Source of the DNA: Bacteriovoracaceae bacterium
Lineage (GTDB): Bacteria; Bdellovibrionota; Bacteriovoracia; Bacteriovoracales; Bacteriovoracaceae
NCBI GenBank assembly: GCA_013141065.1
Contig: JABFRR010000002.1
Location: forward strand, 89,927 to 153,926
Direction of reading: 5' to 3'
Length of the DNA: 64,000 nt
The translations under genes were made by a program, and so were the position numbers. A model generated the notes under the pieces. It saw only the letters and a program-made list of their open reading frames with translations. It was not told the origin of the DNA and did not search any database. Shown piece by piece: positions 10,976 to 35,499 of this stretch. Position 1 is the stretch's first letter. Each line of letters begins with the position of its first letter.

Positions 10976-12083
10976 CTAAGTCAAACGTAAGAGAGCTCCA
11001 ACTTTTGAAGCAATGCCTGGCTTGATACTGAGGTTTTTACCCGTTTCCACTCCCGCAGCACTCGCTCCACTGTGTGTGGCCCCAGAACCAAGAGTTGTGT
11101 GTCCTATTCGTGAATAGACAATTTGTAGTTTTTTAGAGAGATTTGACTCAATCAAAATTAAGTCTGAACTCTGAGCATGAGCTTTTTTTTGTTTTTCAAT
11201 TTTTTCAACATAGCCTTTCGCCACACCTCTAAAAAATGAATTTTTTGCAGTGATGGTCTTAAACTGTGGATTATCTTTTTTAGTGATTTTCCATAAACGA
11301 TCAAGCTCACTGTCTAAAAAATTAGCGACATAATCGGCCAATTCCACACTGGTTTTATCTCCAATGACTTCCAAATAAAAAAGTCCAGTCCCATGATTAA
11401 AAACGGGTGAGACAAAAAATGTTTTGAGAATTTCATAAATCGCCACGTGCTTGGCGCTCTTTCGTTTTGCTTCGAGAACTCTTTTTACACAGACTTCTTC
11501 GTCTGTATCAAGTTTTTCTCGAGACAGTCCTTTGGTGAGGTCTAGGTTGTGTTCAAGTAATAGGGCATTGGCCTTTAAAGTTGCAAGCTCTCTTTTCATG
11601 TGGGTTATCACTGCTAGTTAAGGCCAGTAGTTTTTTTAAGCGCTCTAAAAGTTTTTCTGTTTTTAAATCACCTTCTAATTTAGAGTTTTCAAGATTCAGA
11701 TTTGAATAGGCCCTTTCAACTTCAGGATCCCATCCATAACTTCGACAAACATCTTTAAATTCTTCACCATGAATGACGTGCTCCGGGCCGTGGACAATAA
11801 AGGCAATAAAGTGGGCGAGTTCGTGGCGAATGACATTTTTTAATACTCTATCGTGCGCCAGCATCATCAATTTTTTCGAAAGTCCAATTTCATAAGTGCG
11901 GTGATCGAAATATCCAAGACGATTATGGTCTTCAAAGACCACAATGTTTAAGGGATAAAGAATTCCATTATAGAGGACGCGACTGCGATCCATTTTTAAG
12001 TTCATTTCAAGATTAATAATCTCACGAACGTCTTCGCGAACTCTGGCAATGAAGGTTTTGATTGTTTTAGAATAATAAAACAT
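10976..12083 (-). CDS. SprT-like zinc metalloprotease domain + DUF2786-like region, split by a frame change at about 11593
   Basis: ORF 11553-12083 has NVIRHELAHFIAFIVHGPEHVIHGEEF and ends LLERLKKLLALTSSDNPHE; ORF 10976-11611 continues RELATLKANALLLEHNLDL in another frame. Removing one base of an A4 run (plus-strand TTTT 11593-11596) joins them. Confidence 0.7.
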
Positions 12084-12808: not shown

Positions 12809-13136
12809 ATATCCATTATAAGGGGCATATGGTTTGGTAAATCTCCTAATTTAGCCTGTTGTCGATATACCAATAAGTTAAAAAAATAAAGGGATTTTTA
12901 AGCAGTTGAATTTGCATTTATATCACTTAGATAAAGACCTAATGACTGTCCAATATTCAAGGCGATTGTTTTGTAATTTGTTGAAATGTGAAGAGCAAAA
13001 TTGACTCACTTATTTGGTCAATTTTAAATCTTAAGATAAGTATAATTTATATTCTTTTAGGAATATTTCTCTTGTTTGTTTTAAATTTGCCGTTAACCTT
13101 CTGTAATACATTTTGAATGTCAGGGAAGGAAGTTCG

Positions 13137-16100
13137 ATGAAGTATTTATTTGTCACATTTTTATTTTTTTCATTAAGTTTTCTCAGTAATGCTCAAGATA
13201 ACTGTACTGGTGTTCGTATTAATATGAATTTCTATTACAGTGAGTGTGCACGAATACAAGCTGAATCAATTGAGCAGGGTGCAGAGGGGCTGGTGTTAAC
13301 CCCTACAAAAAAACTCGTATACGTAGATGATAATGGACAATCATACTCGAATATAGAATGCGTTAGTAAATGGGAGCACTTAATATTTGGTTATATTTCT
13401 GAGCCATTTTTAGATACATGTGGTGTGAATCCTCCTGGGCCCAAAATTCAAAACGCAAACTCATGCGGAGTCCCTGGCTCAATAATCGAAGTTTCTAATC
13501 AAGTTGTCGGAGAAGTCATTCCCGTGGTCGGAGCCCCATTTGAATTAATTTATTATTCTAATAAAGTTATTGGCAGAACAGAAGACTATATTTCAAGAAT
13601 TCCATTAACAGCTCAGACTTATTCATCTGCAGTTATACATTTAGGATTACTAATAAAAAATGAAATTGATGCCACAGTCCTTAGTACGAGTTACACCCCT
13701 TCTTCAAATATTATTTATAATTATCAGTGGGATGGGTTCGACGCAAGTTTGAATGAAACGTGGGGAAAAATAAGACGAAATGTTACAATTTCTGAAACTG
13801 CCATGGATTTATCATTTCCACCAGAACCAAGGGACATCTATCTTGGTAATTTGAAAGCTAAAAAATTAGGAATAGGAGCATGGCTTCCGAGTATCTGGCA
13901 TTTTTATGACCAGGTTTCCGGCACACTTTTTAAAGGAGACGGGTCCTATAGAGAAATCAAAGGAAAAGTAATTGGTGCCTACACAGAAGTAGCAGATGAA
14001 TCTGGCCTGGAAGTTTATTATTTTGATAGCACTGGTAAAATCTCTCATACAAAAACAGGACTTACTGGGGCGACGATTTTTACTTTTTTATACGATGGTG
14101 CCGGCAGAATAACGAGCATTACACAAGCATTTGGGCAAGTGACAACTTTTTCTCGAGATGGCTCAGGACAACTTCAGTCAATTGTTGCTCCCAACGGAAA
14201 AGTAACTAATGTGAGTTTTAATACGAATGGATATTTATCAGAAGTTTCTAATCCCAACTCAGAAGACTATCTAATGACCTATTATGGAACGACGGGGGGG
14301 CTACTTCATACATTTACTAAACCTTCAGGTGATGTGACAACTCTTACCTATGATAGTTATGGAAATTTAACAAGTGACACTCACACCAATGGTTTTTCTT
14401 TGACGCTTAGTAAAGTTGACGGTGTCGTTTCTTCAGTGAGTTCTGAAGGTGTCACCAATTTTAGTAAATATACACCATGGGATTTTACAGAAAAGAGCAC
14501 TTCGGCAACAGGCCTAGTTAATTATGTCAGTACAACACCTACGTCAACTGCCATTAGTTCACCTTTTGTAAGTCGCAATTATACTTATGAAGCCGATTTA
14601 CGTTTTGGAGATCAAGTCAAAAATATTTCAAATTCATCTATCTCTAACTATGGAGTCCGAAATACAAGTATCACACGAAGTCTGAATTTAAATACACCAA
14701 ATGACCCTTTTTCAATTGATACATATTCAATTCTAGAAACGGTTGGCCCTTCTGAAACGACTTCAGTTTATTCAGGCAGCAATAATTCTTGGGTGACAAC
14801 TAGTAAGCTTGGAAGAACACTGACGAAAACTTTAGATACTTATGAAAGACCAATTTCCGTGCAGAAAGGAAATTTGACTGCCACAAATTTTACTTACACT
14901 AATGAGTTGTTAACAAAAATTTCTCAAACGTCTGCGAGAGAAACAAGCTTTACATATTTTACAAATAAACTTTTAAAAGATGTGACTAATGCTCTCAATG
15001 AAGTCACTAGCTACACTTATGATAATGCCGAAAGACTTTTAACGAAAACACTACCTGACTTAAGAGTGATTACTTATAGCTATGATTCAAACGGAAATAT
15101 AACTAGTATCACTCCACCGAGTAGACCGGTGCACACTTTAACATACGGGTTGAATGAAAAACTTGTCGATTACACTCCTCCAAGTTTATCCGGTGTGAGC
15201 ATCGTTAAAACAGAATATACTTATGACTTGGATAAGAGGTTAATAAAGATCACTAGACCCGATGGAAAGGAAATTGATTTTACTTATAGTACAGCGAATG
15301 GACTTCTTGATACGACGTCAGGTTTGTTTGGAACTATTACTCATGGTTATAATTTGGGAAGTCTCACAAGTATTGTGGACCAATTTGGATCAACTCTTAA
15401 TATGAATTATACCGGCAATACAGTGACTTCAAGTGATCTCAGTGTCACGGCGGGAGCAGTATATAGTTATTCACGAACTCCAAATGCCACTGCTGGCGAA
15501 AAAACTGCAAGTGAAACGATTAATGGTTTGGGAGCAAGTTCTGTTAATAGAACGGTTGCCTATACTTATAACGATGACGAATTATTAACTGGCGCTGGAA
15601 CAATGAGTCTCGTTTATAATGTACCCAACGGACAATTGACGGCAACGACCTTAACGAATATTAAGGATTACACTTATTATAATTCTTTCGGCGAAGTCAT
15701 TCAGTATGTAGTGAAAAAAGGCACACCCGTTATTTATCAATATGACTTAATCAGAGACAATCTCGGACGAGTCACTAAAAAAACAGAACTCTTAAATGCC
15801 GTGACAACAATTTGGGACTACCTCTACGATAGTGCTGGAAGACTGACTCAGGTAAGTAAAAACTCTGTCGTCGTTGCCACTTATAGTTATGATAATAATA
15901 GTAATCGCACGGGTGGAATAATTCGAGGTGTGAGTACTACTGCCATCTATGATAATCAAGATCGACTGACTACATATAACGGTATTGCTCGAAGCTATAA
16001 TGCCAATGGTGAACTGTTAACACTCGGAACGGCCGTCCTTACTTATGATGTCTTTGGAAATTTAAATCAATTTGTGAATGGTTCAACAAATGTGACTTAC

Positions 16101-16913
16101 GAAGTTGATCCACTTCAAAGAAGATTGGGACGCACGATAAATGGAGTGGGATCATCGCGAACGAGATATATTTACAATCCAGAAAATCAGGTTATCGGTG
16201 AATTAAATTATCAAAATAAATTAGCGAAGACTTTTATTTATGCGACTAAGAGTCACGTGCCAGATTATTATATTGATAGCGGTGGAAATAAGTTTAGAAT
16301 AATAACTGACCATCTTGGATCTGTCAGAATGGTAGTGAACGCGAGCACGGGGACTGTTTCACAGTACATGGAGCACGACGAGTTTGGAGTGGTGTTGACG
16401 GATACAAATCCAGGCTTAACACCATTTGGTTTTGCGGGAGGGCTTTATACTCCACAGTCTGGGCTGGTTAGGTTTGGGGCGCGTGATTATGATCCATTGG
16501 TTGGTCGTTGGTTGAGTAAAGATCCGATTAGGTTTGATGGTGGGGATACTAATTTGTATGGGTATGTTGAAAATGACCCCATAAGTTTTATAGATGAGGA
16601 TGGTTTAAATAGAAATAGACCTGGTGAAAAGAGGGAAGTTGGAGGTAGCGTTGGCGGCGGAGGTGTTATTTATGTTGCACCTAACGGACAAGCAGCTTTC
16701 GCTCCGACAGGCTCATTTGTTTCACCAACAAAGTATGCAGATGGGTTGAAAATTAATACGCCTAATGGTGCTCAAATTCGATTAATGGACCCAAAACCTA
16801 TGAGCCCCAATGGTTATGGTGTAATTAATATAAACGGTAAATTTTATAACTCTGGAGGTCAAGTTGTTCCAAAGAGCTCACCAGAAGCACACATACAACC
16901 AACATGTAAGTAG
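13137..16913 (+). CDS. full-length RHS/YD-repeat protein with variable C-terminal (toxin) region
   Basis: Signal peptide MKYLFVTFLFFSLSFLSNAQ; many YD repeats; core end [49 protein letters not shown] then unrelated ~97-aa CT. Confidence 0.93.
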   Translation: MKYLFVTFLFFSLSFLSNAQDNCTGVRINMNFYYSECARIQAESIEQGAEGLVLTPTKKLVYVDDNGQSYSNIECVSKWEHLIFGYISEPFLDTCGVNPPGPKIQNANSCGVPGSIIEVSNQVVGEVIPVVGAPFELIYYSNKVIGRTEDYISRIPLTAQTYSSAVIHLGLLIKNEIDATVLSTSYTPSSNIIYNYQWDGFDASLNETWGKIRRNVTISETAMDLSFPPEPRDIYLGNLKAKKLGIGAWLPSIWHFYDQVSGTLFKGDGSYREIKGKVIGAYTEVADESGLEVYYFDSTGKISHTKTGLTGATIFTFLYDGAGRITSITQAFGQVTTFSRDGSGQLQSIVAPNGKVTNVSFNTNGYLSEVSNPNSEDYLMTYYGTTGGLLHTFTKPSGDVTTLTYDSYGNLTSDTHTNGFSLTLSKVDGVVSSVSSEGVTNFSKYTPWDFTEKSTSATGLVNYVSTTPTSTAISSPFVSRNYTYEADLRFGDQVKNISNSSISNYGVRNTSITRSLNLNTPNDPFSIDTYSILETVGPSETTSVYSGSNNSWVTTSKLGRTLTKTLDTYERPISVQKGNLTATNFTYTNELLTKISQTSARETSFTYFTNKLLKDVTNALNEVTSYTYDNAERLLTKTLPDLRVITYSYDSNGNITSITPPSRPVHTLTYGLNEKLVDYTPPSLSGVSIVKTEYTYDLDKRLIKITRPDGKEIDFTYSTANGLLDTTSGLFGTITHGYNLGSLTSIVDQFGSTLNMNYTGNTVTSSDLSVTAGAVYSYSRTPNATAGEKTASETINGLGASSVNRTVAYTYNDDELLTGAGTMSLVYNVPNGQLTATTLTNIKDYTYYNSFGEVIQYVVKKGTPVIYQYDLIRDNLGRVTKKTELLNAVTTIWDYLYDSAGRLTQVSKNSVVVATYSYDNNSNRTGGIIRGVSTTAIYDNQDRLTTYNGIARSYNANGELLTLGTAVLTYDVFGNLNQFVNGSTNVTYEVDPLQRRLGRTINGVGSSRTRYIYNPENQVIGELNYQNKLAKTFIYATKSHVPDYYIDSGGNKFRIITDHLGSVRMVVNASTGTVSQYMEHDEFGVVLTDTNPGLTPFGFAGGLYTPQSGLVRFGARDYDPLVGRWLSKDPIRFDGGDTNLYGYVENDPISFIDEDGLNRNRPGEKREVGGSVGGGGVIYVAPNGQAAFAPTGSFVSPTKYADGLKINTPNGAQIRLMDPKPMSPNGYGVININGKFYNSGGQVVPKSSPEAHIQPTCK

Positions 16914-16922
16914 GATATAAAA

Positions 16923-17297
16923 ATGAAAAGTTTTGAGAGTGTTAATAAACTAATTAATGAGAAGCTAAGTTTTCCTATAAAAGTAACTATTAAGTGTGAA
17001 AATCAAGAATACAATATAGAAAACGATGAAATAAAAATTGCTTTAGGTGATATCTTTTATTTTTCATCAAATGAAGGTGAAACGCTTGTTGCAAAAGAAA
17101 ATATTTTTTCTATGTTAAATATAAATGAAATAACAATACTTAATATGCAAGTAGATGAATTGAATATATTAAAAATCGAATGCAAAGAATGTATCATATT
17201 AGGTTTTCCTAGAGAGTATGAGGGCTGGGGTATTTATGTAAAAGGTAAACAATTTGCAGCTCATTATGGGTGGCAAAATGATTTGGATTGGGAGTAG
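16923..17297 (+). CDS. putative cognate immunity protein of the RHS CT
   Basis: Small acidic ORF 10 nt after the RHS stop. Confidence 0.5.
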   Translation: MKSFESVNKLINEKLSFPIKVTIKCENQEYNIENDEIKIALGDIFYFSSNEGETLVAKENIFSMLNINEITILNMQVDELNILKIECKECIILGFPREYEGWGIYVKGKQFAAHYGWQNDLDWE

Positions 17298-17420: not shown

Positions 17421-17437
17421 TGGCCAGAAAATGGCCA
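17421..17437 (+). repeat. cassette-site copy 1: TGGCCA-GAAAA-TGGCCA
   Basis: Direct reading; followed by TGCACC...GGTGCA inverted repeat and GGCCGC. Confidence 0.75.
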
Positions 17438-17521: not shown

Positions 17522-17583
17522 AATTATGGATGAGTAAAGATCCAGTGCCATTTGCGGGAAATTATCACTGGGTCTTTAAATAG
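17522..17583 (+). pseudogene. RHS core-end remnant (LWMSKDPVPFAGN)
   Basis: tta tgg atg agt aaa gat cca matches RWLSKDP of RHS core. Confidence 0.55.
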
Positions 17584-17698
17584 GTGGCCAAAAAGTGGCC
17601 AAATATTTAGAAAAATTCCAAAAAAAGTGCTTTAAATGAGCACTTTTTTGGAACGGCCAACTGGCACTGACGTTGGGAATTTTCCACTTAAAGACCCA
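17569..17698 (+). repeat. cassette-site copy 2 in a large palindrome: TGGCCA-AAAAG-TGGCCA (17585-17601)
   Basis: Outer arms TGGGTCTTTAA (17569-17579)/TTAAAGACCCA (17688-17698); inner hairpin TTCCAAAAAAAGTGC/GCACTTTTTTGGAA. Confidence 0.75.
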
Positions 17699-17813: not shown

Positions 17814-19517
17814 ATGCATCGAATTGTAAAATCTCACTTAGACAATTTTTCTAAAAATTTTGGACTAGAAAAACTTAGTGAATCATATCAGTTTGAAGTT
17901 TTTTGTAATTACTCATTACTTTATTCTAGAGTAAGTGGTGATTTAGATGCAACTGATGTAACGACTAGTACAGGTGATGATGGTATAGATGGTATCGCAA
18001 TTATAGTAGATGAAGAATTGTTGATATCAGACGAAGATGCAAAAAATATTTTTTCGACAGAAAAGAAAAATCATGAAGTTGAATTTGTTTTTATTCAGGC
18101 AAAAAGAAGTGAATCTTTCGACTTGGGAGATTTTTTAAAGTTTAAAGAATCAATATTGAGATTTATTACCTCTGAAAAATACGATCCTTTGGATGACGTT
18201 CAAGTAAATACGAGAAAAGTTTTTGATATATGTATAAGTAATGTCCCGAAGATTAGAGGAGGTAAACCTAGCTTAACAGCTAGATTCGTTACAACTGGAA
18301 ATTATCAATTTCCAACAGCCCTGGAGACAGCACTTAAAGATTTTAAAGTACAGCTTGAAGAGCTTGGATACTTTTCTAATGTAGATATCAGTTTTATTGG
18401 AAGAGATGAATTAACTACTCTATGGGTAAGTACATATTCAGGAATAGAAGCCCAGTTAACTATATTTAGCAATGCTCCCTTACCTCCCATCTCAGGAATT
18501 GAAGAAGCATATCTCGTTGTCGCTAAAGCTAAAGACGTAGTATTTAATCTACTTCAAAATAAGGATGGTACTCTTAGAACTCAAGTCTTTGAAGAAAATG
18601 TTAGATCATTTTTAGGGATAGAAAACCCTGTTAATAAATCTATTGCAAACACTATTCATACGACTAATTCCTCTACAAGGTTTCCAGTCTTAAATAATGG
18701 TATAACGATTGTAAGTCCTGATGTTAGAGTGCAGGGTAATACTTTGCATTTATTAAACTTTCAGATTGTTAATGGATGTCAAACATCAAACGTATTATAT
18801 GAAAATCGCGAATATTTAAGCGACGACATTATGGTAAATTTAAAAATCGTAGAAACCTTAAATGAAGATGTTTTTTCTGAGCTGGTTAGGGCAACAAATA
18901 GTCAATCAGAAGTAAAAGAGAATCAATTTTTTTCCTTAAGACCGATTGTAAAAAGAATTGAGCAATATTTTGATTCTTTTGATGGACTGGAAAATCGATT
19001 ATACTTTGAGCGCCGTCAAAGACAATTTGTAGGAAGAGACATTCAGGATGTTAGAATATTTTCAGTTCATAATACTGCTAAATGTGTAGGTTCAATGTTC
19101 CTGAGAAGACCAGATTTGGCTTATAGGTACCCAAGACAGGTTTTTGATAAACTCGGTGCCGATGTATTTTCAGAAGATAATAAAGAAATTATTTATTATA
19201 CCTCATGTCTAGCACTTTATCGTTTTCAATTATTTGTTTCTAATGCGCAAATTTCCCAAAATATGAAAAAATATAAGTGGCATATACTAGCTCTATTTCG
19301 TGCAATCGTTTGCGATAAAAATATCCCACCATTAAACTCAAAACAAATTGAAATTGATTGTACTAATCTAGTTAATGTTTTATCTGCTAACGATGCTTCT
19401 GCTCTTGCACCATTCTTGGAAGCAGTTTTTATAATTGATTCTATGGGCGCTATTACTGATGACAGATTAAAGAGACAATTAGTTTTAGATGAGATGTTTG
19501 CCAAAATTAAAAATTAA
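17814..19517 (+). CDS. AIPR-family abortive phage infection-like protein
   Basis: SRFPVLNNGITIVSPDVRVQGNTLHLLNFQIVNGCQTSNVLYENRE...VRATNSQSEVKENQFFSLRPIVKRIEQYF..LYFERRQRQF is the AIPR signature. Confidence 0.85.
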   Translation: MHRIVKSHLDNFSKNFGLEKLSESYQFEVFCNYSLLYSRVSGDLDATDVTTSTGDDGIDGIAIIVDEELLISDEDAKNIFSTEKKNHEVEFVFIQAKRSESFDLGDFLKFKESILRFITSEKYDPLDDVQVNTRKVFDICISNVPKIRGGKPSLTARFVTTGNYQFPTALETALKDFKVQLEELGYFSNVDISFIGRDELTTLWVSTYSGIEAQLTIFSNAPLPPISGIEEAYLVVAKAKDVVFNLLQNKDGTLRTQVFEENVRSFLGIENPVNKSIANTIHTTNSSTRFPVLNNGITIVSPDVRVQGNTLHLLNFQIVNGCQTSNVLYENREYLSDDIMVNLKIVETLNEDVFSELVRATNSQSEVKENQFFSLRPIVKRIEQYFDSFDGLENRLYFERRQRQFVGRDIQDVRIFSVHNTAKCVGSMFLRRPDLAYRYPRQVFDKLGADVFSEDNKEIIYYTSCLALYRFQLFVSNAQISQNMKKYKWHILALFRAIVCDKNIPPLNSKQIEIDCTNLVNVLSANDASALAPFLEAVFIIDSMGAITDDRLKRQLVLDEMFAKIKN

Positions 19518-19702: not shown

Positions 19703-20161
19703 ATGAATGAAAATAAAATTAGAGCTTGGGGATATTTTCTAAATAGAGTTCTCCTGGGAATAGCAGCAATCGTTGGAGCTTGTAAAGCACCTCAGGCGAT
19801 TTCTGATTATGCAATTAATGTTAAGACTGAGCAGATTATTAATAATGCGATGTCGACTGTGGTAAAGATTGCTTCAAGTATAAAGAATGAGAATCACAAC
19901 ACCATCGTTAATCAGTACAAAGAAAAACTTCAAAGTTCTTTAAACAATCCAAGTGAATTTAAAAAAGAGATTGCAGGTATTCCGGAACCAGTTCTTCAAC
20001 AATTAGGCTTAAAGACTTCAAAAGCTGATCTTTCACATGGCTTGGAAGATAAAAAAACTACCGAAGACGTTAGAAAATTTTTAAATGAGAAATTACCTAA
20101 TTTGCTTTTAGATGCAGCAGGAAAGCCTTTTCTTTTGGATAGGAGCAAGCCTGGCCAATAA
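19703..20161 (+). CDS. hypothetical protein
   Basis: ORF with hydrophobic N-terminus; no recognised motif. Confidence 0.4.
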   Translation: MNENKIRAWGYFLNRVLLGIAAIVGACKAPQAISDYAINVKTEQIINNAMSTVVKIASSIKNENHNTIVNQYKEKLQSSLNNPSEFKKEIAGIPEPVLQQLGLKTSKADLSHGLEDKKTTEDVRKFLNEKLPNLLLDAAGKPFLLDRSKPGQ

Positions 20162-20272: not shown

Positions 20273-20289
20273 TGGCCAAAATATGGCCA
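20273..20289 (+). repeat. cassette-site copy 3: TGGCCA-AAATA-TGGCCA
   Basis: Direct reading; followed by CTCAA...TTGAG inverted repeat and GGCCGC. Confidence 0.75.
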
Positions 20290-20386: not shown

Positions 20387-20875
20387 ATGATGCCACAGTC
20401 GAATAGTCATTATGATCCATCGGTTGGTCGGTGGTTATCAAAAGACCCTATTAGGTTTGCAGCTGGTGATAGTAACCTTTATGGCTATACATTTAATGAT
20501 CCAATTAACTTGATTGATCCTTCTGGCCTGGATGTAACTTTTTATATTGTTCCTCCTTATCATTCTATGATTGGTGTTACTAATCCTGCTTCACCATCAG
20601 GTATGACTTATGGTGAATTTTATCCTCGTGGAAATGATATTGGCTTAACAGGACCAGTCCCAGGAAGAGTAAATATCACTTCAAGTTATCCTTTACCAAA
20701 GATTCCATACAATACAATTCAGACTACTCCAGCACAAGATAGCCAGGTTCTTCAAAACATGAAAAACTTAAGAAACATGGCAAACGAAGGATCATTTGGT
20801 TATTCGGTTACTGAACAAGGTGGTAGCAATTGTTTTGGATTTTCTTCACAAGCTTGCGGAGGAGCGTGTAAATGA
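20387..20875 (+). CDS. orphan RHS C-terminal cassette (toxin tip)
   Basis: [42 protein letters not shown] core end, then unique CT with YHSMIGV...GGSNCFGFSSQACGG. Confidence 0.8.
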   Translation: MMPQSNSHYDPSVGRWLSKDPIRFAAGDSNLYGYTFNDPINLIDPSGLDVTFYIVPPYHSMIGVTNPASPSGMTYGEFYPRGNDIGLTGPVPGRVNITSSYPLPKIPYNTIQTTPAQDSQVLQNMKNLRNMANEGSFGYSVTEQGGSNCFGFSSQACGGACK

Positions 20876-21117
20876 ATATAGCAGGAACTTTCGTAATATT
20901 TTGGTTTTATATCTATTGGGCACTTATTATAACCTGTCCAATTGTTCTCGCAGTAACGATATATGTTTGGCTTAGGAAAAAAGGGACAATCAAGCAAAGA
21001 CGTTTGTTGATTATTTTTTCAGCATTGCTTTTGATTCTTTCAATATATCAAATAGCATTTTCTGCTTATAAGAAAAACTTAATAGAGAAAATGCCAGAAG
21101 AAGAAATTTACAAATAA
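20872..21117 (+). CDS. small two-TM protein, putative immunity
   Basis: ATGA overlap with the orphan CT stop; two hydrophobic helices. Confidence 0.55.
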   Translation: MNIAGTFVIFWFYIYWALIITCPIVLAVTIYVWLRKKGTIKQRRLLIIFSALLLILSIYQIAFSAYKKNLIEKMPEEEIYK

Positions 21118-21192: not shown

Positions 21193-21208
21193 TGGCCAAA
21201 TATGGCCG
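21193..21208 (+). repeat. cassette-site copy 4: TGGCCA-AATA-TGGCCG
   Basis: Direct reading; next ~120 bp nearly identical to copy 5. Confidence 0.8.
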
Positions 21209-21319: not shown

Positions 21320-21730
21320 TTGAGGTTTGGGTTGCGTGATTATGATCCATTGGTTGGTCGATGGTTATCAAAAGATCCGATTAGGTTTGATGGTGGTGAT
21401 AGCAATCTTTACGGATATGTATTGCAAGATCCAGTAAATCTAATTGACCCTACCGGTCATATATTTGCCAATGTAGTCGGAGGTATTTTTGGGGCTGCGT
21501 ATACTGCTGCAACTGGTGGTTCTGCTAAAGAAATAATTGGGTATGGAATACTTGGTTTCGCAACTGCTGGTTTAAGTATTCCTGTACAGATTGGTATTGA
21601 ATACTTCTCTAACCCTAATGTTACGGCACCAGATGCTGATAAGGTTCCAAGAGCTCCTAAGCCAAAGAGTCCTTCGTGTGTACCGTCTATGCAATCATGT
21701 CAACCTGCTAAAAATGCTTGTGGAGTCTAA
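21320..21730 (+). CDS. orphan RHS C-terminal cassette (glycine-rich hydrophobic CT)
   Basis: [45 protein letters not shown] then [21 protein letters not shown]... Confidence 0.8.
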
Positions 21731-22035
21731 GAATGAAAATTGCCAAATATAACATAATTGAATTTTTTCCTATGTTTATAGCTTTAGGAATTTTAATAAT
21801 TTTAAGAACTTTTTATCCAGGTTGTGTTAGTAAAAATTGCTTGGGGAATGCAATACTTATATCTTCAGCGATCGCAGCAGTTTTAAGTTTTTTTATTTAT
21901 AGAAATACTCAAAAAATAGATAGCAAAATATACTATTACTCTAAATTACAAAAAGTAAGAATTCTGCTTGGTTCTTTTTTATGGATAGTGCTTTTTATAA
22001 TTATTTTGCTTGATAAAATATTTGTGCTTTTTTAA
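21718..22035 (+). CDS. small multi-TM protein, putative immunity
   Basis: Overlaps the CT ORF end; about three hydrophobic helices. Confidence 0.55.
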
Positions 22036-22091: not shown

Positions 22092-22107
22092 AGGCCAAAA
22101 ATGGCCG
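22092..22107 (+). repeat. cassette-site copy 5: AGGCCA-AAAA-TGGCCG
   Basis: Direct reading; downstream leader matches copy 4. Confidence 0.8.
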
Positions 22108-22548: not shown

Positions 22549-22565
22549 TGGCCAAAAAATGGCCA
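22549..22565 (+). repeat. cassette-site copy 6 (recombinase-proximal): TGGCCA-AAAAA-TGGCCA
   Basis: Direct reading; ~100 bp downstream align with copy 2. Confidence 0.8.
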
Positions 22566-22706: not shown

Positions 22707-23729
22707 TTATTCAAATGGGTTTATAATATCGTTAGTAATTTTTTTCCCTACAGCTTCGGCATAAAGTCTCTTTGTATCGTAAACACTTTTATGCCCGAGA
22801 ATTCTTTGAAGCTCCAAAATATCTCCTCCATTAGATAAAAAAATTACTGCGAAGGAGTGTCGAAGATCCATAGGGCACCATTCTCCTATGTACATTTTTT
22901 TTGCTTTAAATTCATTAATGATCCTAACTAATTTAAAGTTTGTGAATGGCTCCTTATAATAAGTTTGAAAAACAATTTCAGAAACTCGCTTTTTCATTGA
23001 TAAGATTTTTACTAGCTCACTTGATATTTTCAGCGTTCTGTCTTGGCATTGTAATTTTGTATTTAGTCTAACAATGCCATTATCCAAATTAATTTCATCC
23101 CATCGTAGCTCGACAAGCTCAGATGTTTTCATTCCTGTTTCAGCAAACATTTTAATAATAGGATAAAGATATCCGGGAGAATATAATTTTATAGAATTTA
23201 ATAATTTTTTGATGTCAGATTCAGATAGCAGATTTCTAGCTTTTAATGGTGGAGCAATTTGATCATAGTAAATTCTTCTAAGTGGTGACTCTGAAATAAT
23301 TTCTTTTTCTTCAAGAAAGGTAAATAACGAGTCCACATCACCCTTAATGTGTCTCATTGTTATGTCTTTTAAATTATTTTCAGCTTGAATTTGATCAAGC
23401 CACATTTTAAGAGAGTTATGAGTAATGTTTTCGACATAAAATTTTCCAAAAGTGTCGATAAAATCAATTAAATGGCAATGGGTTTTTGAAAATTTATTAT
23501 ACTTTGGTTTTTCTATCAAAAAATAAATAATCAATTCTTCTATTGTTAGATTACTAAATTTGTTTTTAGGCCCAACCTTGTACATAGTTTCAGTGCTTTT
23601 TTTAAAAACTTGGGCATCTTCTTTTGTAGAAAAACAACGGCGAACTTTTCTTTTGGTTAAAGGATCAACAAAGCTTGTTAAAAAATTGTTCTCTTGAGAT
23701 GTGAAAATGTTAACTTTAAATTCTTGCAT
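22707..23729 (-). CDS. tyrosine recombinase, degenerate active site
   Basis: LRHSFAVIFLSNGGDILELQRILGHKSVYDTKRLYA; ETGMKTSELVELRW at the ArgI box. Confidence 0.85.
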   Translation of the reverse strand: MQEFKVNIFTSQENNFLTSFVDPLTKRKVRRCFSTKEDAQVFKKSTETMYKVGPKNKFSNLTIEELIIYFLIEKPKYNKFSKTHCHLIDFIDTFGKFYVENITHNSLKMWLDQIQAENNLKDITMRHIKGDVDSLFTFLEEKEIISESPLRRIYYDQIAPPLKARNLLSESDIKKLLNSIKLYSPGYLYPIIKMFAETGMKTSELVELRWDEINLDNGIVRLNTKLQCQDRTLKISSELVKILSMKKRVSEIVFQTYYKEPFTNFKLVRIINEFKAKKMYIGEWCPMDLRHSFAVIFLSNGGDILELQRILGHKSVYDTKRLYAEAVGKKITNDIINPFE

Positions 23730-23747: not shown

Positions 23748-24785
23748 TTAAGGTTCATATGGCGAGGGGCATTCGATATCTTGAGCTTCTAGTTGACCAT
23801 AAAGATCAACAGTCACATTAATTGAACTGTGTCCCAGGATTGCTTGAAGCTGGTACATTTTGCCACCCTTTTTTAAAAAGTTGTAAGCAAATGAATGACG
23901 TAAGGCATGTGATCCCCATTCATTTTTTACCATTGGAAAAAATTCCTTAAATTTCTTCATGAGTTTTGATAGATCTCCATCAGAGCTAGAATTGTTATCA
24001 TGTCCAAATGTGGTGAAGAGCATGTGATGATTATGACTAGCAAGGTGATCTCTCAAGACTTTTTCAAGGATAGGAGAGATTCGAACAAATCTCTCTTTAC
24101 CATTTTTTGTTTTTCTTAAATGGATAAGTCCTGTTTCAAAATCTACATCCTTTCTATGAAGACTTGTAATTTCTTCTTTTCGAGCACCTGTATGAGCGAC
24201 ACAAGAGAGATAAGGATAAAGTGTCTCAGAAGAAAATGTTTTAGAATTTTCCAAAATTTCTCTTACTTCACCTATCGACAAAACAACTCGGGATCTTTTA
24301 GGAGGAGCGTTACGATTAAAACGTATTCCTTGAATTGGATTTTTTGTGAGATAGTCTTCCTCAATTAAATATTGAAAGAATCCAAAAAATTGTGACCGAA
24401 TATTATTTAATGTTTTGTCACTTAAATCACCTTTTGATTTTGTATCTAAGAGCCATTGCCTTAAATCTGTTTGACTTAACTCTACAACTTTATAAATACC
24501 AAAGGTATCAATGAAGGATTTAAAATAACTAGGTCTTTTTCTTACTTTGGTTCCAGGAAATCTTTCAATAAAGTTTTGCATAGCTTGAGAAATTCTCAAA
24601 TCAGAAAATACATTTTCTCCTTTACTAAGAACTTGAGTTTCAAGTGATTTTTTAAATACCCTTGCATCCTTCAAGGATGGGAAACGCTTTCTAATTCGAG
24701 TGCTTGTTTTAGGGTCAAAGAATTTACATTGATAAAATCCTGATCCCATCTTATGAATTTTCACTTCAAATTGATTTATGCTCAT
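23748..24785 (-). CDS. tyrosine recombinase
   Basis: TGARKEEITSL; TKNGKERFVRIS; HALRHSFAYNFLKKGGKMYQLQAILGHSSINVTVDLYG. Confidence 0.93.
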   Translation of the reverse strand: MSINQFEVKIHKMGSGFYQCKFFDPKTSTRIRKRFPSLKDARVFKKSLETQVLSKGENVFSDLRISQAMQNFIERFPGTKVRKRPSYFKSFIDTFGIYKVVELSQTDLRQWLLDTKSKGDLSDKTLNNIRSQFFGFFQYLIEEDYLTKNPIQGIRFNRNAPPKRSRVVLSIGEVREILENSKTFSSETLYPYLSCVAHTGARKEEITSLHRKDVDFETGLIHLRKTKNGKERFVRISPILEKVLRDHLASHNHHMLFTTFGHDNNSSSDGDLSKLMKKFKEFFPMVKNEWGSHALRHSFAYNFLKKGGKMYQLQAILGHSSINVTVDLYGQLEAQDIECPSPYEP

Positions 24786-25987
24786 AACTTAACTCTCATT
24801 AGCTCATTTGAACTTGGAAGATTATGATCTTTTAAAATTAATTGATGGCTTCGACTTGCTAACCATTTATCAAAAAGTTCAAGTTGAATTAAAAAATGTT
24901 TTTTTATTCCAATATTAACGCTTGGAAACGTTGGGTCTGATTTTATGTGGCGATAAATTAACCACTGACTAATTCCATACATACTGGCAACCTCCTTGAT
25001 TGAGTACAATTTTTTTAATGGAAATTTTTCCATACTTGTAGGCCAACATGTTGTCGGCCGTTCAGTCAATGGCCGTTCTTCAGAATTTAATTTTTTTGGA
25101 ACTCGCTCTTTGGGATATCTGAGGTTTACAAGCGTCGGATTAAGATCGCAGAATTTTTTCTTTAAGTATTTGGTCTCCCTTTTATCGGTTCCTAAAATAT
25201 AAAGATATTTATGCTTTTTAGGCAAAGGACGCTTTAGACATCTAGATTGGTGATCTGTAGAAGCTTGATAAAGAACCTCTTTAATTTTTTCTGGGATTTT
25301 ATTCCAGAAAATTTTGTCACGATAACTCCAGGCCAATTCCCATTTAATACCAAGGTCATGGGCATAATATTTGTAGCTTGTCGTTTTTCTAAAAAGGCGA
25401 TCACAAAACCAATTTTTTTCTGGGAAGGCTTCATCGAAGTATTCAAAGCGTGCTCCCGAATTTTGGCCGAGGTAAGTAAAATTACATGCCTGATAAATAG
25501 TTCCAAGCTCTCTAGCCGTAGTGTCTGAGTAAGCAGTAAAAAATCTAAAAGGAGTATTTTTTACCATCCATTTAATAGAAAACATTAAAAGTGCACTCGC
25601 AAGATTCTTCGGACTCCATGAGATGCATGCACCTCGAGAGATTAATTTTTCTAGATCTCTTTCTTTTTCTCCTAGCAGATTAGAAAATGCATTAGGTGTA
25701 GCCATTACAATAACGCCCGCTAGATTTCCTTTGTAGGTTGCAATGAATCGCTGTGTTGGTCTATGAGGCATTTTTCCAAGCCATTCATGACGTGTGATAA
25801 AATTTCTAACTCTTTCACACATTAATTGGTCGGTTTTATCTATGTATGAAAATGTAAAATCAGAAATTTTTAAAGAGCTAATCTCTTCCTTAATAAGCCC
25901 TGATTCAATAAGATCGAGCTTTAGATTCTTAAGTCTAACGTCATATTGGTAACAGTGATCTTTATTATATTCGTTCCGGTGATCCAA
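24782..25987 (-). CDS. Mom-like GNAT acyltransferase fused to C-terminal excisionase-type HTH
   Basis: ISWSPKNLASALLMFSIKWM..FFTAYSDTTARELGTIYQACNFTYLGQ (Mom-like) and LYSIKEVASMYGISQWLIYRHIKSDPTFPSVNIGIKKHFLIQLELFDKWLASR (HTH). Overlaps start of recombinase gene. Confidence 0.6.
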   Translation of the reverse strand: MDHRNEYNKDHCYQYDVRLKNLKLDLIESGLIKEEISSLKISDFTFSYIDKTDQLMCERVRNFITRHEWLGKMPHRPTQRFIATYKGNLAGVIVMATPNAFSNLLGEKERDLEKLISRGACISWSPKNLASALLMFSIKWMVKNTPFRFFTAYSDTTARELGTIYQACNFTYLGQNSGARFEYFDEAFPEKNWFCDRLFRKTTSYKYYAHDLGIKWELAWSYRDKIFWNKIPEKIKEVLYQASTDHQSRCLKRPLPKKHKYLYILGTDKRETKYLKKKFCDLNPTLVNLRYPKERVPKKLNSEERPLTERPTTCWPTSMEKFPLKKLYSIKEVASMYGISQWLIYRHIKSDPTFPSVNIGIKKHFLIQLELFDKWLASRSHQLILKDHNLPSSNELMRVKL

Positions 25988-27694: not shown

Positions 27695-28291
27695 TTACAA
27701 TTCTATTGCTGCCTGTGTACTGAAGTGGTGATGGCAGTTCCCTGAATGGAAATTTATGGTGAAGAGTTTGCCATTTGTATTTGATAAAATGGCCATAGCC
27801 TTATTTGATTTAAACTCTTCAAGAGTGCAGAAAAATACTTTTCCAGAAAATTGTTTAGCTAGATTTTCTTCAGTTTTTATCAATCCGTTTTTAATGTAAT
27901 TGTCACTACAAATATAGAGGACCGCATCTATGGATTCCTCTAAGTGGTAGTTAAGTAAATGCTTAGTCCAACGATCTGACTTTTTCTGACTTCTTTCAAA
28001 TTCAACAGCGATTTTATATTCTCTCTCTTTAACTAGCAGAGAGAAGTAAATATCTGTATTCAGTCTTCTTAAGGCTTCGTAGTGCGAATCATTATCACCA
28101 AATACAATTGACTGAATTTCATTTTCGGTTTTGATTTCTACCAAATTTCTTGCAAGTGAAAGTTGATCAAATATTCCAGCAAGCTCAATGTCATGTTCAA
28201 TATTTGAACTTTTTAGTTCTTTTCTTATGAGTTGCCCAGAGAGCAAATCCAATATTGCAGTTAAACCTTTTGGTGAGATCGGTAAATTCAA
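27695..28291 (-). pseudogene. replication-relaxation-like protein, C-terminal part (interrupted by IS110-like element)
   Basis: LNLPISPKGL..., YKIAVEFERSQKKSDRWTKHLLNYHLEESIDAVLYICSD; N-terminal part at 29831-30067. Confidence 0.65.
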
Positions 28292-29830
28292 AAAAGTCTC
28301 CTCAGTGCTCTAAAGCACGAATGTTGTAAAATAAGTTTGCGTACATTTTTTAGCAACATTCAAACATTTGAAGGAGACCAGTATGTTTAATCATTATGTA
28401 GCAGTGGATTGGGCAATTGCCAATATGGCAATCGCAAGAATGACGGAAAAATCTGATGATATAAAAGTCATAGATGTTCCATCAAGTATTAAAGAAATGC
28501 AGATATACTTAAAAAACTTAAAAGGAACAATTTGCTTAACCTTTGAAGAAACATCGACTTCACAATGGCTATATACTGAGCTGAAAGAGTACGTTGATAA
28601 ATTAGTTGTTTGTGATCCCTATCGAAATAAATTACTAAGTGAGGGACCTAAAAATGACAAAATTGATGCAAAGAAATTAGTAATGCTACTTAGGGCTGGA
28701 CTCCTAAAAGAAGTTTTTCATTCCAGTGATAAATTTATTGAATTGAGAAAAATAGTAAGTGGTTACGAAGACACAATAAAGGCCGGTGTAAGACTTAAAA
28801 ACCAAAGATCATCAATGTTTCGATCAGTAAATAAAGATCACAAAAAGAAACAGAGCTGATAATAGATGCGGATAAATTTGTACTTGGTGGTGTTGACATG
28901 CAAATTAAATACTATGAAGCTGAAAAATTAAGATATAAAAATGAATTTGCACGACTAAAAAAAAGCACATCCTGAAATAAAAGATTATGTGATATTCCAG
29001 GAATAGCAGACATATCTGCAGTTAAATTAGTTGCAAGAATTGTTGATGCGAATAGATTTCCCAATAGAAATAGCTTTTTGAGTTACTGCGGGCTCATTAA
29101 ACTTGAAAAAATGAGTGGTGGAAAAAGCTATGGGAAGAAAACACCTCGTTTTTGTCGTCCATTAAAAGCTGTTTTTAAAACAGCAGCATTGGCAGCAATT
29201 GATGGAGACAACGAATGTGGAGATTATTGCAAATACCTTATAGAGACAAAGAAATATTCTGACAGAAATGCAAGACATGCTTTGTCGAGACGAATTGCCA
29301 CAATCACTTATGGAGTAATGAAAGGAAATATAAAATATGATGCTTTAAAACGAAGGAACAACATAGAACGAAACAAGATGGATACAAGTAAAACATAGAT
29401 CTATAAGTTTATTTTTGAATAATTTATTTTAATAATAGTTGTTGATAATAACCTTATAGATGGGAAGAGATTGCTCATTTTATATGATAGCATTTAATAG
29501 CTCAGGAGATCGGTTAGCACCTTCCCTTTTTCTTAAATTTATAATGCGGCCAAATTTATAGCCAATGTAGGGGGATATTTAAAAATCCCCTACACATTGG
29601 CAAATTAGAGAGCCCAGATAGACGTGTTGGAAAAACTATAAAATATCCAATTGAAAAACTTATAAAGAAAAGGTTATTAACGTTAAAAGTGGAACAGATA
29701 AATTGTAAAAAATACTTTAAAACCAGGCAGGATTTTGTCATCATTCCCAACATAAGTTAATGTGTGGTGCGAAGTCCGGAGACCGTAAGTCAAGAATTTC
29801 TTGTAATGGGAGACTTTTTTTCTTGACCTA
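28292..29830 (+). mobile_element. IS110/IS1111-like insertion sequence, transposase frameshifted
   Basis: ORFs 28368-28859 (HYVAVDWAIANMAIARM..KNDKIDAKKLVMLLRAG) and 29078-29398 plus CDIPGIADISAVKLVARIVD; near-terminal inverted repeats AAAAAAGTCTCC/GGAGACTTTTTT; removal restores a host ORF. Confidence 0.75.
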
Positions 29831-30078: not shown

Positions 30079-30714
30079 TTAAATTCCAATAAAGATTTCT
30101 TTCTCATTATTTTCAGTATTATCTGAGTTTATTTCTAGCATATTATTTCTACATGGGTATTTGGCATTAAATTTCTCCTGAATAAGTTCAATTTCTGCTT
30201 TTAATTCGTCTTCATCAATAAATGGACATTGAAGTTCTAAAAATTCATTTCCAGATGCCGAAATGGCCCGACCTTTTATATCTGGCAAATCAAATGCCTT
30301 TTTATTTCCTAAGACAGTAATCGAGTTGACCATTGTGTTCATTCTAAAACAGACTCGACCGCCAATGTTTTCTTGAACTTTGGTATCAATGGTTTCTTTC
30401 GAGACTTTTTGAGTTGCTAGAATTAAATGCATTCCTGCTGCTCTTGCCAATTTTGCTAATTCATCTGTGTATTCTCTAGCGGAATTAATTAAGTGAGCTT
30501 TAGTGTCGTTGGATCTGACCTTTGTGTAGAGAACAGAAGCTTCATCAATTCCGATCACGATTTTGTCCATTCCATCCCTTTGAGGAACAATTTCTTTGTG
30601 ACCTGATTTCTCTAAATATTTAAATCGCCGATCCATTTCATCCTTAAGCTTCTTTAACATTTTGCAAGCTTCTTCTTCGGTTTTGGCAATTCTCACATTA
30701 GATATACTGCTCAT
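30079..30714 (-). pseudogene. FtsK/SpoIIIE-like (conjugation coupling type) ATPase, C-terminal fragment
   Basis: IVIGIDEASVLY (Walker B), ELAKLARAAGMHLILATQK, NIGGRVCFRM, GRAISASGNEFLELQCPF; Walker A half missing at the IS630 boundary. Confidence 0.7.
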
Positions 30715-30739: not shown

Positions 30740-31783
30740 TTGGCCTATTGTTATGGCCGTACTATTATACTTTTCATGTATAAATTTCTTAACAAAGACC
30801 AAAGACAGGAACTACTTGACGAGCTACAAATTGAGCGTTCAAAAAGATACGCTGATAGGATTCGGGTTATTTTACTCTTAGATGATAATCAGACGTACAA
30901 AGATATTTCTAAATTTTTATTTCTCGATGAAGGATCCATTGCCAATTACAGAAAACGCTATATGGAAGGTGGAATCGAAGGCCTAATTCTGGATGAATAC
31001 AGCACCAAAAGAACAAAGTTAAATCTTGTTGAAGAATTTCAACTTGCCAATGAACTTGACGATAGAATCTTTGCTTCAACTAAAGAAGTTGTTAATCATA
31101 TTTTTAAAAAATATAAAGTAAAATTCTCTATTAGTGGCTGCAACAACCTTCTTCACCGGCTTGGATTTTCGTTCAAAAGCAAAAGGCGTACCTGGTAAAG
31201 CAAAGAAAAAGACCAAGAAGAATTTATAGAAAAATACAATTCTCTCAAAGGAAAAGGAAAGATTTACTTTGGCGATGCAACTCATCCACTTCATAATACA
31301 ATCCTTTCTGCTGGGTGGATTAGAAAAGGCGAAGAAAAAGAAGTTTTCACCAATTCAGGTCGAAATCGCGTCAATGTCTTCGGGGCAATTTCTATTGACG
31401 ACTTAGATATCGTAACTCGTAGCTACGATATAATAAATCAAATCTCAGTATGTAATTTTCTAAAAGCATTAAGAGAGAGAAATCCTAATGGTGAGAAAAT
31501 ATATTTTATTTTAGATCGTGGACCAAGCAATAAGGCATTATCCGTAAGAGAGCTGGCGAAAAAATTAAATATTGAGATAGTGTTTTTGCCCGCCTATAGT
31601 CCAAACTTGAATCCTATAGAACGTTTATGGAAATTTTTTAAGAAAAAAGTTTTATACAATCAGTATTATGAAAAATTTAAAGATTTTAAATTAATTTGCG
31701 CCTCATTTTTTCGAGGAATACGAAAGTATGAATTAGAGCTTGCAACTTTAATTACTGATAATTTTTCAGCAGTAGGCACTTGA
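30740..31783 (+). pseudogene. IS630-family transposase, frameshifted
   Basis: N-term YADRIRVILLLDDNQTYKDISKFLFLDEGSIANYRKRY; then in other frames GKIYFGDATHPLHN and FLPAYSPNLNPIERLWKFFKKKV. Confidence 0.8.
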
Positions 31784-31803
31784 AAACTTAACTGGCTTCA
31801 GTA

Positions 31804-34728: not shown

Positions 34729-35499
34729 CTAACGGCCTGAAAATAAACCTTTAGTGACCGCGCGATTCATACGAGCGATGTTTTCAAGTTTAATTCCTTT
34801 CGGACATTGGGCTTCACATTCAGCTTCATTAGTGCAATTTCCAAATCCTAATTCATCCATTTTTTCGACCATGGCAATGGCCCGAGATTCAGCTTCGACT
34901 TGGCCTTGTGGTAACAGTGCCAATTGAGAAATTTTAGCTGAGACAAAAAGCATAGCAGAAGCATTTTTACAACTTGCTACACATGCCCCACAACCGATGC
35001 AAGCAGCAGCATCCATGGCGAGCTCAGCATTTTCTTGTCCGATTAAAATAGCGTTAGCATCAACGGCATTACCTGTGTTGACATTGACGTATCCTCCAGC
35101 GGCCATGATTTCATCAAAAGCTCCGCGGTTAACCATGAGGTCCTTTACTACTGGAAAAGCTTTTGCTCTCCATGGCTCAATGACAATGGTGTCGCCATTT
35201 TTAAATTTTCTCATGTGAAGTTGGCATGTCGTTGTAAGTGCTTCCGGGCCGTGGGCCTGGCCATTGATCATCATTGAACACATTCCACAAATACCTTCAC
35301 GGCAATCGTGGTCGAAAGCGATTGAGTCACCTTGCTCTTTGACTAGTTTAGTATTGAGAGTATCCATCATTTCAAGAAAAGACATGTCAGGTGAAACACC
35401 ATCAAGGGTGTAGTCGACCATTTTACCTTCGTCTTTACTATTTTTTTGTCTCCAAATTTTTAATTTTAAAGACATATTGTGTGCACTATTTCCGCTCAT
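34729..35499 (-). CDS. sdhB: succinate dehydrogenase/fumarate reductase iron-sulfur subunit
   Basis: [49 protein letters not shown]. Confidence 0.95.

Follow-up and report, generated by a model that had tools for sequence, protein, structure and literature searches.

Inverted-repeat sites between modules of an RHS toxin array, one of them within a large palindrome, in a member of the Bacteriovoracaceae

Results

Organization of the RHS array

The 64,000-nucleotide stretch of Bacteriovoracaceae DNA analyzed here (the window) contains an RHS array with a full-length RHS gene at its head and, at its far end, the convergent genes for two tyrosine recombinases, Int1 and Int2, followed by that for a Mom-HTH protein (Table 1). 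The orphan RHS tips of the array are up to 86% identical in DNA to the end of the RHS core (80 to 86% over RHS segments overall), and six directly repeated copies of the doublet TGGCC-N-TGGCC, termed W1 to W6, lie between 17.4 and 22.6 kb. This doublet is found 11 times on the two strands of the whole window, against 0.19 occurrences expected. As a genome-wide detector, the TGGCC pattern alone was rejected, many of its matches in the organism's own genome being chance occurrences or the ends of IS630-like elements. An Rfam search returned no match above the gathering scores.

Table 1. Sites and genes of the RHS array and the adjoining recombinase island
Feature	Position	Strand	Evidence
Full-length RHS/YD-repeat gene, array head	13113..16913	+	Pfam TEN_YD-shell, RHS_repeat
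ORF immediately after RHS, presumed immunity gene	16923..17297	+	Position only; no Pfam family
W1 core, integrase-proximal type; tail GGGCCGCAAA-GATTCTTGCTC common to G167 sites	17421..17437	+	Pattern, alignment
W2 (feature under study), integrase-proximal type: outer arms, core, inner hairpin, CCAAC/GTTGG stem	17569..17698	+	Folding, alignment with homologous sites
W2 core, TGGCCA-AAAAG-TGGCCA inverted repeat	17585..17601	+	Sole helix retained in homologous sites
W2 inner hairpin, intrinsic-terminator-like	17621..17649	-	Pattern match only
AbiU/AIPR anti-phage protein, W2-W3 cargo	17814..19517	+	Pfam AIPR; PADLOC AbiU, 365 bits
DUF1002 protein, W2-W3 cargo	19703..20161	+	Domain search
W3 core, cassette type, precedes orphan RHS tip 20387	20273..20289	+	Site model, E 5.8e-14 (W3 itself in the model's alignment)
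Orphan RHS tip: RHS core end and new C-terminus	20387..20875	+	Sequence
Small membrane ORF, presumed immunity gene of tip 20387	20872..21117	+	Position and sequence
W4 core, precedes orphan RHS tip 21320	21193..21208	+	Pattern, tip distance
Second orphan RHS tip	21320..21730	+	85.7% DNA identity to RHS gene over 98 bp
Small membrane ORF, presumed immunity gene	21718..22035	+	Position and sequence
W5 core, precedes tip remnant	22092..22107	+	88% identical to W4 over 160 bp
W6 core, integrase-proximal	22549..22565	+	31 bp around core identical to L059 site
Int1, tyrosine recombinase; Arg-I replaced by Lys, HxxR His lost	22707..23729	-	Pfam Phage_integrase; residues
Int2, tyrosine recombinase, catalytic motifs intact	23748..24785	-	Pfam domain, residues
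Mom-domain and HTH_17 fusion, first gene of recombinase operon	24782..25987	-	Pfam; conserved partner
MobC/replication-relaxation-like protein (weak), island backbone	27695..28291	-	18.7 bits, weak; homologues in L060, L062, L128
Truncated FtsK/TraB-like translocase, island backbone	30079..30714	-	Sequence comparison, profile match

In four sister genomes of the genus (G001, G012, G005, and G011), the genes at 11553 to 12083 and 34729 to 35499 are adjacent or nearly so, and the intervening region (12084 to 34728) is absent or replaced, so that the RHS region (~22.6 kb) was either inserted here or lost there. The outer ends of this region are not sites of the W1-to-W6 kind and, since sister genomes are without the whole 12.1- to 34.7-kb segment, the gain or loss of the array as a whole took a route that these sites do not delimit. 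An IS630-like copy (~30741 to 31790) with ends (TGGCCTATTGTTATGGCC) that are repeated many times throughout the genome sits at the expected far end of the recombinase island and is followed by a tip remnant and a further ORF; this insertion would explain the missing far core, having probably destroyed that end of the island. Inside the island, two ORFs at 28368 to 29398 resemble pieces of a broken IS110-type transposase.

Two types of site in Bdellovibrionota genomes

All related sites have in common a short core with inverted repeats, TGGCCA-N5-TGGCCA, and they separate into two types, as follows.

(i) Integrase-proximal sites (W1, W2, W6, and relatives) consist of the core, AAAATTCC, and a variable tail that is often rich in hairpins.

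(ii) Cassette-type sites (W3 and relatives) consist of the core and AAAAATT...AAAATACAAAAAATT, after which the RHS GRW motif appears at a near-constant ~160 bp.

Among 19 cassette-type sites from many genera, identity rises from 0.26 to 0.31 left of the core to 0.84 and 0.80 in the two arms, is 0.43 in the spacer, and stays at 0.64 to 0.76 from +17 to +49 on the right; the arm values follow partly from selecting sites by TGGCC, a criterion that accounts for neither the right flank nor the sharp boundary on the left. The core is where homologous stretches start (e.g., L088 from 11011 versus L122 from 2608, 92.5%). A sequence-only model built from cassette-type sites and applied to further genomes identified strong sites in several more genera as well as in a different family (G281, G289, and G134). 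Matches with E values above ~1e-4 were left out as evidence, except for the G028 sites that adjoin a recombinase relative, which are included in the 27-site counts below.

Homologous sites sit between RHS toxin-tip/immunity modules in many Bdellovibrionota genomes. A gene's stop codon lies no more than 15 bp upstream in 16 of 27 cassette-type sites (1.4% of random positions; the other 11 are not directly behind a stop codon), and an RHS tip begins within 450 bp downstream, mostly at ~160 bp, in 17 of 27 (2.4% at random). The cargo beside sites includes HicAB, Fic/Doc, AbiE, and AbiU: HicAB modules abut sites in three genera of two families, and each of three sites in G281 directly follows a pair of toxin-antitoxin or related genes (Fic/Doc, DUF6932/HTH, and AbiEi/AbiEii). 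In two loci, an integrase-proximal and a cassette-type site are 230 to 280 bp apart with nothing between them (L088, 1680 and 1961; L173, 9571 and 9339), perhaps representing emptied islands.

The palindrome of W2

Integron attC sites are large foldable palindromes that are used as single strands, and the initial annotation of W2, made from the letters alone, likened it to them. The elements it listed are all present: outer arms that are perfect reverse complements of 11 bp each (TGGGTCTTTAA from 17569 and TTAAAGACCCA from 17688), the TGGCCA doublet (TGGCCAAAAAGTGGCCA, 17585 to 17601), an inner hairpin with one bulged A (TTCC-A-AAAAAAGTGC / GCACTTTTTT-GGAA), and CCAAC-N10-GTTGG. Folding all six sites as single-stranded DNA, the check proposed there, sets W2 apart (136 nt; -31.1 kcal/mol versus a shuffled mean of -13.7; z = -6.5, with 0 of 200 shuffles as low), the other five being much weaker (z of -2.5 for W1, -1.1 for W3, -1.1 for W4, 0.1 for W5, and -3.9 for W6).

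Taken alone, the outer arms are unexceptional: a shuffled 64-kb window averages 3.9 such 11-bp inverted repeats (gaps of 60 to 140), and ~1% of local shuffles contain one. They gain weight because a homologous site in L059 has similar arms (TCGGGTCTTTAAT / ATTATAGACCCGA, 12 of 13 positions complementary), between which and those of W2 a compensatory T-A to C-G change keeps the pair. Conservation of the arms in related loci thus extends to this one site but is not general, and the arms may be locally important, yet they are not what defines the site.

The covariation anticipated for an attC-like structure was not recovered. In RNAalifold predictions from 14 cassette-type and 9 integrase-proximal sites, drawn from many genera, the core is the sole helix retained, and there are no compensatory changes. 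When the W2 structure is imposed on 12 integrase-proximal sites, the core is paired in 94% of cells and the outer arms and inner helices in 58, 48, and 43%, compared with 33 to 46% when the whole structure is slid. Its covariation score (0.196) exceeds those of all 500 shuffles, but we do not count it as evidence because the sequences are related and slid controls reach 0.154. At equivalent boundaries, cassette-type sites show no excess folding (z of -0.5 to -1.2), and they are conserved at the sequence level, unlike attC sites. The outer R boxes of attC (RYYYAAC / GTTRRRY) are not matched exactly in W2, the nearest sequences being GGCCAAC and GTTGGGA, with one mismatch each and ~10 bases apart; the stem that they form (CCAAC/GTTGG) is retained in 43% of cells. 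Nor is either recombinase in the window an IntI-type integrase (46 and 70 bits against a TIGR02249 cutoff of 265). The specific analogy to attC is therefore weak, and function as a folded single strand finds no support; the broader hint of an integron-like array was right, in that the six related, directly repeated sites are very probably the recombination sites of such an array next to tyrosine recombinases.

The recombinase pair and its operon

Int2 retains all catalytic motifs, including Arg-I and the HxxR histidine. In Int1, Lys replaces Arg-I in all copies that cover the position (7/7), and the HxxR histidine is replaced by Met, Ala, or Ser in 8 of 8 copies. The most economical reading of these residues is that Int2 would cut, with Int1 as a putative architectural or directional partner. 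Int1-Int2 pairs that are 52 to 65% identical to those in the window occur in G005 (a same-genus relative, "Bacteriovorax sp. STB_52"), G081, and G048; further pairs are present in G163 and G167, and a distantly related pair in G262, which belongs to another family. A search of contigs with Int1 returned three close relatives and one weak, unrelated match; plasmid records contain no relative of the Mom-HTH protein and only Int2 matches below 60% identity (25 to 28% in the best rows).

Two recombinases with a Mom-HTH protein, rather than the three consecutive recombinases of GInt and RIT elements, are encoded in the window and in L060, L062, L088, L089, and L224. The fusion of a Mom domain to an excisionase-like HTH is the conserved first gene of the operon (window, 24782 to 25987; L060, 16862 to 18031; L062, 8846 to 10075; L088, 6698 to 7924; L224, 9715 to 10959), and a domain of the DNA-modification type is unusual in a recombinase operon. 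Close homologous loci have the operon within an RHS array or at its end, between an immunity-like gene and an RHS tip, or beside a tip. The G005 recombinases (L059, 668 to 2737) look frameshifted or interrupted, with split ORFs suggesting a decayed element or assembly errors. In G281, two C-terminal remnants of Int1 lie between cassettes (L168, 7692 to 8000 and 9765 to 10070), a sign of repeated insertion and decay.

Boundaries of recombinase elements

Recombinase elements in several genera end in TGGCCA-N5-TGGCCA cores, and in two loci the recombinase genes are bounded by matching att cores. In L062 (FtsK, MobC-like, Mom, Int2, and Int1), the bounding cores share the spacer TGGCCGTTTGGTGGCCA. 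In L224, from another family, a comparison confined to the two island flanks gave CGGCCG-GTTCG-CGGCCG / CGGCCG-GATCG-CGGCCA as the best shared stretch; the change in its arms is symmetric, as an inverted-repeat binding site would lead one to expect. The spacers differ in L060/L061 and L088, as those at the two ends of one island usually do (ATATA/GAATA in G081; CGATA/TTTAA in G163), which limits the argument for a recombination site. The L060/L061 and L062 elements also carry an FtsK/TraB-like translocase and a weak MobC-like protein; in L060 and the window, both proteins score far below curated cutoffs.

Discussion

W2 is best read as a short recombination site of the double-stranded kind, in a copy that folds unusually well. 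We put a probability of about 0.7 on the explanation that a dual tyrosine recombinase acting on double-stranded cores inserts and removes modules in RHS arrays, with W2 as the left boundary of an AbiU island. The repetition of the sites, the boundaries, the gene content, and the catalytic residues are directly observed. W2 would be an attachment site that bounds, on the left, an island of 2.7 kb without an integrase gene (AbiU and DUF1002, 17.6 to 20.3 kb) within an array of orphan RHS toxins, and its working part would be the double-stranded core (two inverted TGGCCA arms with a 5-bp spacer) followed by the AT-rich right flank, the large palindrome being a local embellishment that probably consists of arms and a terminator hairpin. 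Recombination is probably carried out by the Int2/Int1 pair from the end of the array, with Int2 active and Int1 catalytically defective; we infer that these proteins bind and cut the cores, and also the direction and frequency of recombination. Recombination between directly repeated cores would add modules to, or delete them from, the interval that separates an immunity gene from the following RHS tip, the modules being tip/immunity pairs, toxin-antitoxin or anti-phage genes, or the ~6- to 9-kb recombinase-bearing element itself. Homologous recombination could later join stored tips to the full-length RHS gene through the segment that they have in common, as has been demonstrated for orphan Rhs of Salmonella.

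Several findings tell against this explanation: simple conservative recombination would not predict differing spacers unless heterologous spacers are tolerated, 11 of 27 cassette-type sites do not directly follow a stop codon, the contigs of many site-bearing loci encode no recombinase, and sister genomes are without the whole region. Nor were excised circles, reads across junctions, or pairs of strains with a single-module difference seen. The absence of a nearby Int gene at many loci would also fit sites that are a mere conserved intergenic repeat (MITE- or REP-like, or the 5' leader of an orphan RHS tip), with homologous recombination moving the modules and the recombinases belonging to a bystander mobile element that uses RHS arrays. 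The conserved leader, which extends to ~+50 right of the core and runs into the RHS tip, and the availability of RHS segments of 80 to 86% identity are likewise as this account would have it, but conservation ends sharply where the core begins on the left, and yet the spacer varies, and recombinase elements in several genera end in these same cores, with a symmetric arm change in another family; we regard it as unlikely. Also unlikely is a half-active Int2/Int1 heterodimer that makes one strand exchange at double-stranded cores and leaves the Holliday junction to the host, as in integrons. In this way it would assemble reshuffled repertoires of toxin tips, toxin-antitoxin modules, and anti-phage modules, subject to modulation by extruded palindromes like that of W2.

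The palindrome invites two further explanations. That it serves mainly as a transcription terminator or insulator between modules, independently of recombination, would accord with the terminator-like score of the inner hairpin and with hairpins of unrelated sequence at a similar place in some integrase-proximal sites. But sites without hairpins have the same core and AT-rich flank, and the predicted direction of termination opposes that in which the RHS genes are read, leaving this very unlikely as a complete account; a terminator role may exist in addition to recombination rather than instead of it. We give still less credence to an attC-like site that the recombinase uses as a single strand folded into a large hairpin, as in integrons. 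The exceptional folding of W2, the recurrence of its arms in L059 with a pair-keeping change, and the moderate folding of some integrase-proximal sites (z of -2.5 to -3.9) speak for it, but cassette-type sites do not fold, the core is the only helix kept, sequence and not just structure is conserved across genera, and the integrases fall far below IntI models.

Among known systems, integrons are similar in that small, co-oriented, toxin-antitoxin-rich cassettes have a directly repeated site shortly after their stop codons and a tyrosine recombinase is encoded at one end of the array. They differ in that the sites described here have a double-stranded inverted-repeat core of conserved sequence without a conserved hairpin, the recombinases are two, of non-IntI type, and accompanied by a Mom-HTH protein, and an RHS toxin gene heads the array. 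The rAID systems of Bacteroidales (PMC12247911), compared here by description, likewise pair a tyrosine recombinase with arrayed, co-oriented genes for interbacterial conflict and have conserved motifs in the intergenic regions, but they store orphan immunity genes, whereas the present arrays hold RHS tips, toxin-antitoxin, and anti-phage genes, have two recombinases, and belong to another phylum. Orphan rhs modules (PMC3967940) are tip/immunity pairs downstream of a main rhs gene with which they share a segment, and polyimmunity loci near XerC/D genes (PMC3482391) show that recombinase genes can adjoin such loci; those reports describe homologous recombination or adjacency, to which the present analysis contributes defined cores separating the modules. 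GInts (PMC5385486), RIT elements, and PAISt (PMC4057263) resemble the present elements in having a recombinase operon at one end, cargo, and imperfect end repeats, and in PAISt a short palindromic att site permits modular excision (PMC4057263). GInts, however, encode three integrases and a small helix-loop-helix protein (PMC5385486), as opposed to two integrases, one of them catalytically defective, and a Mom-HTH protein, with RHS arrays as the target. A search of the freely accessible literature found no description of such recombination sites in RHS arrays.

The gain of polymorphic toxin tips and the buildup of defense genes nearby have so far been ascribed mostly to homologous recombination or to unspecified recombinases. 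Defined cores, a conserved recombinase pair, and recurrent modules in several families offer a specific and testable route, by which, in several Bdellovibrionota families, RHS toxin arrays would acquire modules through a dual-recombinase system. The Int1-Int2 pair is also a naturally occurring example in which a catalytically defective tyrosine recombinase has been retained alongside one that is active. In these relatives of predatory bacteria, the system seems to place toxin, toxin-antitoxin, and anti-phage modules behind a large toxin gene.
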